A stretch of 64,000 bases of DNA, taken from Actinomycetota bacterium (GTDB lineage Bacteria > Actinomycetota > Geothermincolia > Geothermincolales > RBG-13-55-18). Under the pieces are notes generated by a model that searched no databases, was not told where the DNA came from, and saw only the letters and a list, made by a program, of their open reading frames with translations. Every line of letters begins with the position of its first letter. Position 1 is the first letter of the stretch. Shown here in pieces: positions 10,105 to 46,523 of this stretch. Location of the stretch: NCBI GenBank assembly GCA_014360645.1, contig JACIXD010000014.1:1-64000 (forward strand). Direction: 5' to 3'. Made by a program: the position numbers and the translations under genes.

Positions 10105-12213
<2,109 letters not shown>

Positions 12214-40843: not shown

Positions 40844-41231
40844 CGACGCCTCCCGTCTTCAACGCCTCCGGCCTCTGTTCTCAGTAACGGAGCCGGGCGG
40901 ACGGCGGAGCATAGCCCTTGTGAGTGATTTGTGGTTGCCCCCGGTACTAGTCGTGCCCATTCTACCGGGATGGTACGCTGGTGTCGAGTGTGCACGGGCG
41001 GCTCGCAAGGCGCGAAGGGGTCTTCCCGGAGAGGGCGGGCAACGCGCGCGTCACCGCACGGTCGCTCTGGTCCGTGCTAGTATATTAACTCGCGGCGTCC
41101 TCACGGGTCCCGGGAAGCGCCGGCGGGGATGAGGCGCCGCTTTCGCGATGCGCCGGTGGAGCCCTGGAAAGGCGGGCGGAGAGGTGCGCGACCGCGCCGA
41201 CGCCCGGTCGGACGACAGGGGGGGTAAAGGG

Positions 41232-42011
41232 ATGCGGCCCGTGCTCTTTCACATCGCCTCCCACCCCGTGTATTCCTACGGGGTGATGCTCTTCCTCGCC
41301 TTCCTGGCGGGGATCGCGGTGGCGCGCCGCGAGCTGGCAAGGCGCGGACTGGACGGCTCCGCCGCCTATATCCTGGGAGCGGTGGCCGCGGTCAGCGGGG
41401 TGCTGGGTGCGCGGCTCTTCTACGTCCTCGGCCACCTGGATGAGTTCTCGGGGGACTGGGGCGGAGTGATAGACCTCAACATGCGCGGCCTGGTCTATTA
41501 CGGGGGTCTCGCTCTGGCCGTGCCTGCATGCCTGCTGGCGGTCAGGCGCCTCGGCCTGCCCGCGGGCGAGGCGGCCGACGCCGTGGGGCTGGCGCTCCCG
41601 CTGTCCCTGGCCATCGCCAGGGTGGGCTGCTTTCTCAACGGATGCTGCGGGGGCAAGCCCTCGGGTCTCCCCTGGGCGGTGACCTTTCCGGGCACGGCGA
41701 CCCCCGTGCATCCCACCCAGCTCTACGAGATGCTCATGGACCTGGCCCTCTTCGGTCTCTTGCTGTGGGCGAGAAAGAGGCTGCGGCGCGGATGGGACCT
41801 CTTCCTCCTCTCCCTGGCGGGGTACGGACTGGTCCGTTTCCTCAACGAGTTCTTCCGCGTACACGCGGACGCGCGGGCGCGCCTCTTCTTCCAGCTCCTC
41901 AGCCTGGCCCTGGTGTCGGGAGCGTCCCTGGCGGCGTTCCTGCGTGAGAGGGATGCGCGAGAAAGGGAGGCGGTCTCCGTTCAGGGCGGTGAGGCGGGGG
42001 ACGGCGCCTGA
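41232..42011 (+). CDS. lgt: Prolipoprotein diacylglyceryl transferase
   Basis: A 259-residue integral membrane enzyme that attaches diacylglycerol to the lipobox cysteine of lipoproteins. There are about seven hydrophobic segments; family motifs are GLVYYGGL (the GG-L block), LSLAIARVGCFLNGCCGG (signature region with R, G and N) and HPTQLYEM, with RFLNEFFR near the end. ATG 41232 is chosen over the longer frame from 41148, whose first 28 residues are charged and unlike Lgt. It converges on a lipoprotein gene, a likely client. Confidence 0.92.
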   Translation: MRPVLFHIASHPVYSYGVMLFLAFLAGIAVARRELARRGLDGSAAYILGAVAAVSGVLGARLFYVLGHLDEFSGDWGGVIDLNMRGLVYYGGLALAVPACLLAVRRLGLPAGEAADAVGLALPLSLAIARVGCFLNGCCGGKPSGLPWAVTFPGTATPVHPTQLYEMLMDLALFGLLLWARKRLRRGWDLFLLSLAGYGLVRFLNEFFRVHADARARLFFQLLSLALVSGASLAAFLRERDAREREAVSVQGGEAGDGA

Positions 42012-42038: not shown

Positions 42039-42185
42039 TCAGCGCCTCACCTTTCCGGAGCCGCCGCAGACCGGGCAGGCGACTTCCTCGTTCACCTTCC
42101 CGCCCCCGCCGCAGTCGGGGCAGGCTTTAGTCTTGGCTATCCTGCCGGTCCCGCCGCACGAACCGCACGGCACGGGGGCGCCCCC
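42039..42185 (-). other. In-frame continuation of the zinc-knuckle lipoprotein after TGA
   Basis: Directly after the TGA the same frame reads GGAPVPCGSCGGTG, then ACPDCGGGG and ACPVCGGSG, ending KVRR and TGA. These repeats are clearly the same array. A foldable hairpin lies 42150-42176 on the coding strand (CCCG-UG-CCG / CGG-CGGG, loop UGCGGUUCGUG). Confidence 0.7.
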
Positions 42186-42824
42186 TCACGTGGGACAGAG
42201 GCCGCTTCCCCCGCATTCCGGACACGTCTCGTAGGCGGTGACCGTCCCCGTACCGCCGCAACGCCCGCAGGCAGCCGGCCTCGTCACCCTGCCGCTGCCG
42301 CCGCAGTTCGGGCAGGCCACGAAGGCCGAGCCCTCGCTGATGGAGAGGGTTACGGCGGACCCGTTCGGAGCCCTGGCGCCGGGAGCCGGATCCGCGGCGC
42401 ATACGCTTCCCGCCGCCGCCTCCTCGCTGTAGACGCGGCTCACCTCCACCTGGAATCCAAGCTCCCGCAGCTGGGCCACGGCGTCCGCTTCCGGCATGCC
42501 CACCACCGCGGGAACCTCGACCGTCTCTGGTCCGCGGCTCAGGATCAGGGTCACCGCGGAGCCCCGCCTGACCTCCGTTCCGCTGTCCGGCTCGCTGGCG
42601 GCCACCCTTCCCCGCGGGACGCCGTCGGAAAAACTCTCCACGGCCTCGCCGGCCTCGAGGCCGGCCTCGTGGAGCAAAGCCTGCGCTTCCGCGGGGTCAA
42701 GGCCTGCGAGGTCCGGGACCACCGTCTTCGCCTCGCCGCACGAGATCCAGCAGATGGCCAGGAAGAGCAGGGGCAAGAGCACCAGCCACCCTGATGCCCT
42801 CGTTCCGAAAGGCTTATGCGCCAT
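42186..42824 (-). CDS. Lipoprotein with PASTA-like and zinc-knuckle repeats, interrupted by TGA
   Basis: A 212-residue product up to the first stop. A signal peptide ends in a lipobox-like WISC (about 26-29). Two PASTA-like domains (about 35-98 and 102-166; VPDLAGLDPAEAQALL, VPAVVGMPEADAV) are followed by DnaJ-type CxxCGGxG knuckles: CPNCGGSG, CGRCGGTG, CPECGGSG. The frame then reads LCPT and TGA, and continues without break for 48 codons with three more knuckles to a TGA at 42041-42039. The TGA sits where the next CPxC-GG motif needs its second cysteine. A nonsense mutation, a sequence error or selenocysteine are all possible. Confidence 0.75.
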   Translation of the reverse strand: MAHKPFGTRASGWLVLLPLLFLAICWISCGEAKTVVPDLAGLDPAEAQALLHEAGLEAGEAVESFSDGVPRGRVAASEPDSGTEVRRGSAVTLILSRGPETVEVPAVVGMPEADAVAQLRELGFQVEVSRVYSEEAAAGSVCAADPAPGARAPNGSAVTLSISEGSAFVACPNCGGSGRVTRPAACGRCGGTGTVTAYETCPECGGSGLCPT

Positions 42825-43356: not shown

Positions 43357-43815
43357 ATGAGCGGACAAGAAGATCTGGACACCTACGCTCGCAAGCTGCT
43401 GGAGGCGCTCATGCGCGCCTTCCATAGCTTCCGCGACGAACGCAGGTGGAGGGTTTCAGAGGACCTCTCCTTTCACCAGGTCATGCTGCTGCTCTTCATC
43501 GCCGAGAGAGGAGTGGTGACGGCGGGAGAGGTGGCGAGGAACCTGTGCGTAACCCAGGGGGTGATCACCCGCATGGCCGATCGCCTGCTCGAGAAGGGCC
43601 TCATATCGCGTTCGCGGGATCGGGAGGACCGCCGCGTGGTGCGTCTTTCCCTCACGCCGAAGGGGAGGCGACTGGCGGAGCGCGTGGAGAAAAAGCGCAT
43701 AGAGGACATGAAGGCCGTGTTGAGCAACCTTTCCGACGCGGAGAGGGAGAGCTTGCTCGCCGTGTTCAGAAAGATCGGTGACCACCTGGAGAGGGTACGC
43801 GGCGGCGAGGGGTGA
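43357..43815 (+). CDS. MarR-family transcriptional regulator
   Basis: A 152-residue winged-helix repressor. The DNA-binding part spans about 38-105 with TAGEVARNLCVTQGVITRMADRLLEKGLI and the wing RDREDRRVVRLSLTPKG (split). The terminal helices form the dimer interface. A near-perfect palindrome between its promoter and start codon points to autoregulation. The next gene on the strand is an RND exporter, so it probably controls export of a hydrophobic compound; the ligand is unknown. Confidence 0.93.
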   Translation: MSGQEDLDTYARKLLEALMRAFHSFRDERRWRVSEDLSFHQVMLLLFIAERGVVTAGEVARNLCVTQGVITRMADRLLEKGLISRSRDREDRRVVRLSLTPKGRRLAERVEKKRIEDMKAVLSNLSDAERESLLAVFRKIGDHLERVRGGEG

Positions 43816-44135
43816 GAGGTCCGTGGGCCCCGGCCCACGCGCACGCCGCCACGCCGGAGACAGAGGAGGCGGCCGGGCATCGGGGGCCGTGCCCGGCGGT
43901 GGCCGGAGGAGCGGGCCGGCGCATGGAGCGGGCCGGCGACCGGCAGACGGGAGAGAACGAGAATGGCGGAGAGCGGAGGACGATAAAAAAAACGATCATG
44001 ACATCTGCTCAGGAACACGTTGAATGTAGGTGTTTTAGGCCCATAACTCAACCTCATGTTGTGCCGGCGCCATCCCTTCCTGAGCTAACGGACTAATCGT
44101 AAAGGAAAAAGAGAGCGGGAGGTATGGGTGACGAG
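43816..44135. other. Leader between the marR-like and exporter genes
   Basis: No gene is seen. TTGAAT (44020-44025) and ATAACT (44043-44048), 17 bases apart, are a weak promoter pair for the exporter. CAAC-CTCAT-GTTG follows at 44049-44061. No copy of the 21-bp MarR palindrome is present here. Confidence 0.4.
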
Positions 44136-46523
44136 ATGATGGAGAAGATCTTTCGCGGGCTCGCGTCGCAGAGCGAGAAAAGGCCGGTTCCGGTCATCCT
44201 GGCGGTGCTGGCGGTCACCGCGCTGGCGGTGTTGGGATTCAGGTTCCTGAAGTCGGAATATGGCTACAAGAGCATGTTGCCCAAGGACCTGGAATCGGTG
44301 AAGGTGCTGGAGAAGGCCGAGGACCTCTTCGGGGGGACCAGCGAGGAACAGATCCTGTTGGAGGGGGAGGTGCTGACCGGTAGTGTGCTGCGCAGGGTAG
44401 CGGGATACCCCGCGTTCATGCAGGACCAGGCCGACGTATGGGGGAGCTTCGTCATCGAGGTTAACACCCCCCTCGACGGCATGAGCTATTTTCCTGGCCC
44501 CGAGGAGTTGCCCGGTGAGGAGTCCCTTCTGGACAGGGTCGAATCCCTGGGCGACGAGGAGCTGGTGGAGCAGGTGCGCAGAAACATGGAGTACTCCGCC
44601 GAGCGTGCCCGCAGGCTGGGGATGTCCGGGGGCGGGCCCAACGGCATCTCCCGCGGCGGCGAGGCCCTGCTCATCACGGCCAAGATCAACCCGGACCTAA
44701 ACACCTCCCGGCAGATAAAGGGCGTGGGCCCCTTCGAGGAGCGCACGCGGGAATACTTCTCCGACCTTGCGGGCGTGAGCCTTTACGAGAGCGGCAGCGC
44801 CACCCAGAACCGCGATTCCAATCAGCAGACCATGAAGGAGACGCGGCTGCTCTTCGGGCTGGCCCTGGTCTTCATCGTCCTGGTGCTCTTCCTTACCTTC
44901 CGCCGGGTGTCCGACGTGCTGCTCACCCTGGGGGTGATCATGGTCACCATCATCTGGGTGATGGGCCTCTCGGGGTGGTTGGGCTTCCCCTTCACCTTTC
45001 AGAGCACGGCCATCATGCCGCTTCTCCTGGGGGTGGACATAGCCTACGCCATACACGTGATGTCGCGATACTACGAGGAGCGCAGGGCGGGTAAGGACCC
45101 CCACGCCTCCTCGGTGACCGCGGTGGTCACCACGGGGGTGGCGGTGTTCCTCACCGCCGTGACCACCGCCTTCGGGTTCGCCTCCTTCGCCATCTCCGAC
45201 ATGCCGCCCATCGTGCAGTTCGGGGTGCTCTGCGTGGCGGGCGTGCTCTTCAGCTTCCTCCTCTCCGTCACCCTCCTGCCGGCCGCCATCGTGCTGCGCG
45301 ACCGCGGGGCGAAAGCGCAGGCGCGGTGGGAGAGGAGGGAGAGCGGGCGCAGGAGGAGAAGCGGCGAGACTTGGCTTGACCGTTCCCTGGCCCGGGTGGC
45401 GGTGCTCTCGGAGCATCACCGCCTCACGGTGGGGGTGGTCACCGTGCTCATCCTGGCCGGCTGCCTGGCCCTCGGCTTTCGCGTCTCCACCGAGGCCGAC
45501 CTCTCCAAGATGATGAAGGGGGACACCCCCTCCATGCAGGCCTCGCAGAAGATACAGGAATATTTCGGCGGCCAGAGCGTGGCCTACGCCCTGGTGGAAG
45601 GAGATATCCTCGAGCCCGAGAACCTGCGCTCCATGCTGCGCTTCGAGGACGAGATATCCGCCGCCGGCCTGGACGTGAACGGCGAGCCCCTTATTTCGCG
45701 CGACAAGGTGATGAGCATCGCCGACGTAGCCCGCAATCTCAACCAGGGCGAGATCCCGGCGAGCAAGGAGGAGGTCGTCTCCTCGCTCATCAAAATCAGG
45801 GGCAACGGGGGCGGGGGAGGTGCCCGTCTCATCAGCGAGGACGGGAGAACGGCTATGATCAGCGTGCGTGTGGCCCGCGGCGCCGAGAGCGACATGGAGC
45901 GCATCGCCCGCGTCATGCGCGACGTAGGGGCGCGGGTGACCGCCGAAAACCCCGCGATAAGCATGGGCTACAGCGGCATGCCCGTGCTCATGAGCGACCT
46001 CCTGAGCAACATCCTTCCCACCCAGCTCAAGACCAGCGGGCTGGCGCTGCTGCTCTGCGCCTTGGTGGTGATGATCGTCTTCAAGTCCGTCTTCTTCGGG
46101 CTCGCAGCCACCAGCGTGGTCTTTCTGGGCATCGCCATGGAGATCGGGGCGCTGGTGCTCCTGGGATGGTCCCTGGATTTCATGACCGTGATGATCTCCT
46201 CCTTGGTCATCGGAGCGGGGATCGACTTCGGCATCCACTTCACCCACCGCTTCCGTGAGGAGTGGTGCGATGGAGGGGTGGAGATCGACGAGGCCATACG
46301 CCGCACTGTGCTGCACGTGGGCAAGGCCCTGCTGGCCGCGGCGGTGACCACCGCCGGCGCCTTCGCCATCATCGCCGCCAGCGGCGTCGCTCCCCTGCGC
46401 CGCTTCGGCGGCATCACCGCCCTCTCTCTGACCTTCGCCCTCCTCGCCTCCCTCCTGGTCCTGCCCTCCATCCTCGCGTGGTGGGCGGGGAGGATGGAGC
46501 GCAAGCGAGGTGCCTGCAGGTGA
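44136..46523 (+). CDS. RND-superfamily exporter (HAE3/MMPL type)
   Basis: A 795-residue membrane protein with two repeats, each with one helix, a large outer loop and a bundle of five helices (first block about 20-40 and 235-395; second about 425-445 and 630-790). The polar helix residues typical of RND pumps occur in LLLGVDIAYAIHVMSRY and VIGAGIDFGIHFTHRF. It belongs to the HAE3 group that moves lipids or hydrophobic molecules, energised by the ion gradient. ATG 44136 with GGTGA upstream is preferred to ATG 44124, which touches the Shine-Dalgarno. It probably answers to the upstream MarR protein. Confidence 0.88.
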   Translation: MMEKIFRGLASQSEKRPVPVILAVLAVTALAVLGFRFLKSEYGYKSMLPKDLESVKVLEKAEDLFGGTSEEQILLEGEVLTGSVLRRVAGYPAFMQDQADVWGSFVIEVNTPLDGMSYFPGPEELPGEESLLDRVESLGDEELVEQVRRNMEYSAERARRLGMSGGGPNGISRGGEALLITAKINPDLNTSRQIKGVGPFEERTREYFSDLAGVSLYESGSATQNRDSNQQTMKETRLLFGLALVFIVLVLFLTFRRVSDVLLTLGVIMVTIIWVMGLSGWLGFPFTFQSTAIMPLLLGVDIAYAIHVMSRYYEERRAGKDPHASSVTAVVTTGVAVFLTAVTTAFGFASFAISDMPPIVQFGVLCVAGVLFSFLLSVTLLPAAIVLRDRGAKAQARWERRESGRRRRSGETWLDRSLARVAVLSEHHRLTVGVVTVLILAGCLALGFRVSTEADLSKMMKGDTPSMQASQKIQEYFGGQSVAYALVEGDILEPENLRSMLRFEDEISAAGLDVNGEPLISRDKVMSIADVARNLNQGEIPASKEEVVSSLIKIRGNGGGGGARLISEDGRTAMISVRVARGAESDMERIARVMRDVGARVTAENPAISMGYSGMPVLMSDLLSNILPTQLKTSGLALLLCALVVMIVFKSVFFGLAATSVVFLGIAMEIGALVLLGWSLDFMTVMISSLVIGAGIDFGIHFTHRFREEWCDGGVEIDEAIRRTVLHVGKALLAAAVTTAGAFAIIAASGVAPLRRFGGITALSLTFALLASLLVLPSILAWWAGRMERKRGACR

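Follow-up and report, generated by a model that had tools for sequence, protein, structure and literature searches.

An in-frame UGA in a predicted surface lipoprotein of Candidatus Geothermincolia points to a new selenoprotein family

Results

A gene with an internal TGA beside an lgt paralog

We analyzed positions 1 to 64,000 of contig JACIXD010000014.1 (assembly GCA_014360645.1), a stretch of 64,000 nucleotides that we call the window, from an Actinomycetota bacterium whose genome (G000) is 3.38 Mb and 98% complete. On the minus strand, a gene begins at ATG 42824, runs through an internal TGA at 42188–42186, and closes with a terminal TGA at 42041–42039. Standard gene calling terminates this gene at the UGA; translation of 42824..42039 with UGA read as selenocysteine (Sec, U) gives a protein of 261 residues. 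The internal TGA recorded in a first-pass annotation of this DNA is real in the given sequence and belongs to the minus strand. The features of the locus are the following.

41148..42011, plus strand: lgt paralog (prolipoprotein diacylglyceryl transferase; Pfam PF01790, E 2e-47)
42039..42824, minus strand: whole gene, including the terminal TGA, for a predicted PASTA/DnaJ-like zinc-knuckle lipoprotein (translated with TGA as U; same layout in ten homologs)
42738..42824, minus strand: predicted signal peptide and lipobox-like cysteine C29 (from the sequence and the N-terminal alignment)
42336..42728, minus strand: two PASTA domains, about residues 33–98 and 102–163 (Pfam PF03793, AlphaFold2, fold search with a homolog)
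42042..42314, minus strand: DnaJ-like cysteine-rich domain of six CxxCGGxG knuckles, four in most relatives (weak PF00684 match; 1EXK profile match)
42186..42197, minus strand: C-P-T-U motif (CxxU) in the linker of knuckles 3 and 4, or 2 and 3 in four-knuckle homologs (no variation at C210 or residue 213 among the aligned sequences)
42186..42188, minus strand: in-frame UGA, residue 213, predicted Sec (TGA in 10 of 10 uninterrupted homologs; frame kept on both sides)
42152..42175, minus strand: candidate bacterial SECIS of two overlapping hairpins (RNAalifold and pair counts; hairpin scan with controls; frozen CCG-TGC codons)
42174–42170 paired with 42163–42159, minus strand: stem conserved between families, loop CGUGCG (RNAalifold, pair counts)
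42164–42160, minus strand: loop GGUUC of the stronger stem-loop of the window (hairpin scan)

The PASTA assignment is firm, with PF03793 matching two stretches of the window protein (E 8e-34; 116 bits against a cut-off of 23.2) and AlphaFold2 modeling these domains at a pLDDT of about 90. For the cysteine-rich part, PF00684 (DnaJ Cys-rich) scored 23, below its gathering cut-off of 32.7, and the profile of the family matched the E. coli DnaJ Cys-rich domain 1EXK at E 2e-6. No J domain was found in the window protein, which therefore does not belong to DnaJ (Hsp40) proper. The zinc domain of a four-knuckle homolog, that of Candidatus Solincola tengchongensis, was modeled confidently by AlphaFold2 (mean pLDDT 86.5, blocks mostly 82–92), with the CxxU in or beside a short pair of strands. 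When this homolog was compared with known folds using Foldseek, the matches were the PASTA regions of PrkC/PknB kinases and of PBP2x; only PASTA structures were returned and none matched the zinc domain. PADLOC hits to PD-T4-6 were set aside as being due to the PASTA domains only. At the N terminus, the window protein has the lipobox-like site WISC (pattern [LVI][ASTVI][GAS]C), and most relatives carry canonical lipoboxes such as LSGC, LTGC, or FSGC, both judged by eye in the N-terminal alignment. The protein is annotated here as a predicted membrane-anchored surface lipoprotein.

Lgt is the enzyme that lipidates lipoproteins. Of the genomes in which the gene is intact, seven have an lgt paralog next to it, as does one genome with a decayed copy; the two genes lie tail to tail in the genus of the window organism, and the remaining cases that were examined are head to head. 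This neighbor fits the predicted lipid anchor of the protein, without proving a link. Nearly all genomes of the family have at least two lgt genes, about 50% identical to each other (41148–42011 (+) in the window; loci L208–L222), and the copy beside the selenoprotein gene is the one present in all these genomes. The flank also contains a gene for a MarR-family regulator (43357–43815 (+)) followed by one for an MMPL-family transporter (44124–46523 (+)), and a similar MarR/MMPL pair was recognized by eye in the related genome G014 (L128).

The TGA is conserved and the reading frame is constrained on both of its sides

A search of all 31 genomes of the class Ca. Geothermincolia (Actinomycetota) yielded ten uninterrupted homologs from six genera and two families (one, in G003, ends at a contig edge and another, in G008, contains a masked stretch). 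TGA occupies the same codon in all ten, among them that of Ca. Solincola tengchongensis, which settles the comparison of this codon in relatives that the first-pass annotation had proposed. The other homologs are 38 to 60% identical to the window protein, the most distant being that of G145 (38% over the full protein). Database records of seven of the ten genomes, from separate isolates and studies, contain the same TGA; they do not count as additional cases.

Over all homolog pairs, the 27 codons that precede the UGA had an amino acid identity of 0.63, the 15 codons that follow it 0.64, and the 15 codons past the terminal stop 0.07. Nucleotide differences were biased to third positions upstream and downstream of the UGA alike and were evenly spread past the terminal stop. 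Since the constraint is the same across the UGA and is lost after the terminal stop, the frame is translated through the UGA, and the terminal stop is its end. The internal TGA is not merely the usual stop codon of these organisms, because the gene ends in TAA in G145 and in TAG in G008.

No form with cysteine at the Sec position was found in the 31 genomes of the class or in 396 genomes of the phylum. Outside the class, a contig scan with two conserved peptides, which diverged forms could escape, gave no Cys form among its translated matches, and these look like ordinary DnaJ-type proteins.

The CxxU motif lies in a linker between canonical zinc knuckles

The frame around the TGA reads ...CPNCGGSG-CGRCGGTG-CPECGGSG-LCPT[TGA]GGAPVP-CGSCGGTG-CPDCGGGG-CPVCGGSG... 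(spacers shortened). The first-pass annotation had counted seven knuckles and taken the TGA to replace exactly a zinc-knuckle cysteine in the fourth. By spacing, there are six canonical CxxCGGxG knuckles, separated by spacers of 7 residues except for one of 11, LCPTUGGAPVP, and CPT-TGA-GG is an additional, shorter motif inside this long spacer that does not have the trailing GxG. The TGA therefore falls in an extra CxxU motif of the linker and not in a knuckle. The annotation was right that the frame goes on past the TGA through three more knuckles to the terminal TGA at 42041–42039. In the four-knuckle homologs, which have the number of knuckles found in DnaJ, the CxxU is in the linker of knuckles 2 and 3.

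Because the CxxU occupies a linker between canonical knuckles, the Sec is probably not a zinc ligand but one half of a C-x-x-U pair. This position suggests a redox site instead of a metal ligand, and selenoproteins are known to use CxxU as a redox motif (PMC13188914).

A covarying hairpin follows the UGA

RNAalifold analysis of the ten sequences gave a stem of 6 bp with a 6-nt loop, CGUGC(A/G). The stem begins 10 to 11 nt past the UGA, and its loop lies 16 nt past the UGA, or 13 nt in two sequences with a 3-nt deletion. Double-sided changes were present in four of the six pairs, a number reached by 0 of 500 shuffles; three of these pairs owe their double changes to G145 (GUG...CAC to ACG...CGU) and one to G008. 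Shifting the stem partner by 1 to 3 columns abolished the pairing or the covariation. The Pro-CCG and Cys-TGC codons under the hairpin loop are frozen in all ten sequences; several conserved Cys codons elsewhere in the domain are split about 5:5 between TGC and TGT.

A second hairpin, CCGUGC/GUGCGG, overlaps the first, and the sequences of the window and some of its relatives fold more strongly into it. It is the hairpin with GGUU in its loop that the first-pass annotation had pointed out, and it does exist (loop GGUUC, 21 nt past the UGA, dG about −17). It shows no covariation across the ten sequences, though it is paired in 98% of cells. The published model of the bacterial SECIS (PMC13188914) has a G-U near the 5' side of its loop, and so do both hairpins. 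All ten sequences passed the hairpin scan used as a bacterial SECIS finder, with the best loop 16 to 21 nt past the UGA, but so did 83% of the controls at the energy limit, these controls being other positions in the same GC-rich genes. Since so many control positions pass, hairpin energy alone proves little, and we dropped the bSECIS energy thresholds as proof.

The host genomes decode selenocysteine

The sel genes, whose absence the first-pass annotation had named as a reason to abandon selenocysteine, were all found. In G000, selA, selB, and selD are clustered on contig C8, and a tRNA-SeC with anticodon TCA is present. The selD gene carries an in-frame TGA of its own, within SGUAAK, followed by a GGUCC-GGA-GGACC hairpin. 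Between selD and selA (L015, about 11480–12070, minus strand) lies a small gene recognized by eye as similar to YedF/TusA-type genes of selenium metabolism. TGA is also a normal stop codon in this genome, where it ends selA, selB, selD, lgt, and the selenoprotein gene itself. Intact homologs occur only in genomes that have selA; this co-occurrence is weak evidence, because selA is present in 27 of the 31 genomes of the class.

The gene is intact, decayed, or missing among relatives

Within the family of the window organism, the gene is intact in nine genomes and decayed in one (G009), where the TGA has been lost together with several cysteines. It was not found in five others (G001, G002, G006, G007, and G013), and their lgt neighborhoods hold no remnant of it. 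G015, from another family of the same order, has a decayed, frameshifted copy that retains the TGA (L110). Because the protein family is confined to one class and has been lost or has decayed in several relatives, its role is dispensable.

Two related architectures came to light. G015 holds, beside its decayed Sec-form copy, a PASTA and DnaJ-like knuckle protein on the reverse strand of G015:C27 (L111) in which all knuckles are of the Cys type and the CxxU is missing. G016, which lacks selA, encodes a fusion of a PP2C-like phosphatase (recognized by eye) and PASTA domains to all-Cys DnaJ-like knuckles, again with no CxxU (L113, G016:C70, about 1–2000). The G016 fusion is possibly a relative of the same surface module.

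Discussion

The overall explanation that we favor, with a probability of about 0.9, is that this gene represents a new selenoprotein family in which the UGA is read as Sec 213 of an exported PASTA/DnaJ-like zinc protein. Comparison of the homologs shows that translation continues through the UGA and that this codon is specifically retained, in genomes capable of Sec decoding. The selenocysteine reading of the first-pass annotation thus gains strong support at the level of sequence from four sides, namely the Sec machinery, the TGA in ten homologs, the frame kept on both sides, and the covarying hairpin.

Other accounts of the TGA fare poorly. The same annotation had thought a nonsense mutation or base error the simpler option, in which case the gene would be a pseudogene or misread and the downstream frame a relic. 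G009 and G015 do contain decayed copies that are frameshifted or have lost cysteines, but the TGA recurs in ten genomes that were assembled separately, other species among them, and the coding constraint downstream matches that upstream; the decayed copy in G009, unlike the intact ones, loses cysteines along with the TGA. These observations refute an accident and leave its probability practically negligible. If instead the UGA stood for Trp, Cys, Gly, or Arg with no Sec involved, whether by reassignment of the code or by leaky readthrough, the evident translation of the frame beyond it would fit. Reassignment is rejected because TGA serves as a normal stop in the same genome; moreover, the Sec machinery is complete, and no intact homolog has the plain sense codon that would be expected if an ordinary residue sufficed, so that this account is very improbable. 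We give equally little weight to termination at the TGA as the source of the main, short product, with the distal part made as a minor product of readthrough or re-initiation. Sec insertion is often inefficient, and a GTG lies within a few codons of the TGA in eight of the ten sequences. The two other homologs, however, have GAA or ACG where this GTG stands, the distal knuckles are as well conserved as the proximal ones, and any stop codon would do if there were no recoding, yet only TGA is seen.

A different question is what an inserted Sec would do. It could bind zinc or a soft metal and have no redox function, since the domain is full of zinc knuckles and CPTU-GG resembles one. Against this, the knuckles are already even in number (six or four) without the CxxU, the motif lacks the trailing GxG and sits in the linker in all homologs, and CxxU is usual for redox sites; we consider a role as metal ligand unlikely. 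Given Sec, redox cycling of the CxxU outside the cytoplasm is somewhat favored.

Sec decoding at this UGA being strongly supported, we propose the following sequence of events. Decoding would follow the standard bacterial route, in which the hairpin immediately 3' of the UGA directs SelB with its Sec-tRNA(Sec) to this codon, and residue 213 would be Sec. After export, the protein may be lipid-anchored by Lgt at the outer face of the membrane, as its lipobox suggests, and the two PASTA domains, which are evident in the protein, may position it at the cell wall. The DnaJ-like zinc domain would then be a rigid scaffold that carries the C-x-x-U pair on a linker, and this pair would cycle between thiol/selenol and selenenylsulfide, reducing disulfides, peroxides, or other oxidized groups outside the cell. 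The more specific proposal of an obligate selenoprotein family with no Cys form, acting as a selenium-based oxidoreductase of the surface (or as a redox or metal sensor coupled to the cell wall) with its CxxU on a DnaJ-type zinc linker and a fold unrelated to thioredoxin, is tentative and falls a little short of even odds.

The family shares elements with several known systems. Like the DnaJ Cys-rich domain (PF00684, 1EXK), the window protein has repeated CxxCxGxG knuckles, and the profile matches are weak but consistent. In contrast to DnaJ, it has no J domain, is predicted to be a secreted PASTA lipoprotein, and bears an extra CxxU with UGA-encoded Sec in its central linker; the linker of knuckles 2 and 3 is a longer hairpin in DnaJ and is short in this family. 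Repeated CxxCxGxG knuckles are also common to the J-domain-less DnaJ-like zinc-finger proteins ZnJ2/BSD2, PSA2, and LQY1. Thiol-disulfide oxidoreductase activity has been reported for the DnaJ Cys-rich domain (cited in PMC5818400), algal ZnJ2 is a chaperone without this activity (PMC5818400), and the lumenal plant DnaJ-like zinc protein PSA2 is a proposed disulfide isomerase (PMC4806229). With PASTA proteins such as the PknB/PrkC kinases and PBP2x, the window protein shares its two PASTA domains (E about 1e-29 to a PASTA kinase model), but it has neither a kinase nor a transpeptidase domain, and a lipid anchor is predicted in place of the transmembrane kinase arrangement.

The CxxU, the UGA-encoded Sec, and the downstream hairpin are shared with the CxxU selenoproteins GrdA, AhpD-like, SELENOW-like, thiol peroxidase Prx-SUH, and UshA-like family 2 (PMC13188914), none of which is listed there with a PASTA or DnaJ-like zinc domain. 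For almost every selenoenzyme, Cys homologs exist and are the commoner form (PMC13188914), whereas no Cys form of this family was found. A 2026 review catalogs about 119 prokaryotic selenoprotein families or subfamilies (PMC13188914), and its descriptions, by which we made the comparison, include no mention of PASTA, DnaJ, or lipoprotein. None of the selenoprotein models in NCBIfam (June 2026) matches the four members scanned, and a literature search, with subscription journals mostly outside its coverage, returned nothing relevant on selenoproteins with PASTA or DnaJ. As judged from sequence, the family is almost certainly read with Sec, is absent from the current catalog of about 119, and is unusual in its scaffold and its place.

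The finding would extend the bacterial selenoproteome by one family, from a class of uncultivated Actinomycetota about which little is known. Its Sec would have an unusual place, in a domain of zinc knuckles that belongs to a lipoprotein predicted to sit at the cell surface. When such genes are called by standard methods, they end at the UGA, and half of the conserved domain is lost. In GC-rich genomes, the customary energy criteria fail to discriminate, and the family makes a clean set on which to test SECIS finders there. Since no Cys form was found, it is also well suited to the question of why Sec is kept.
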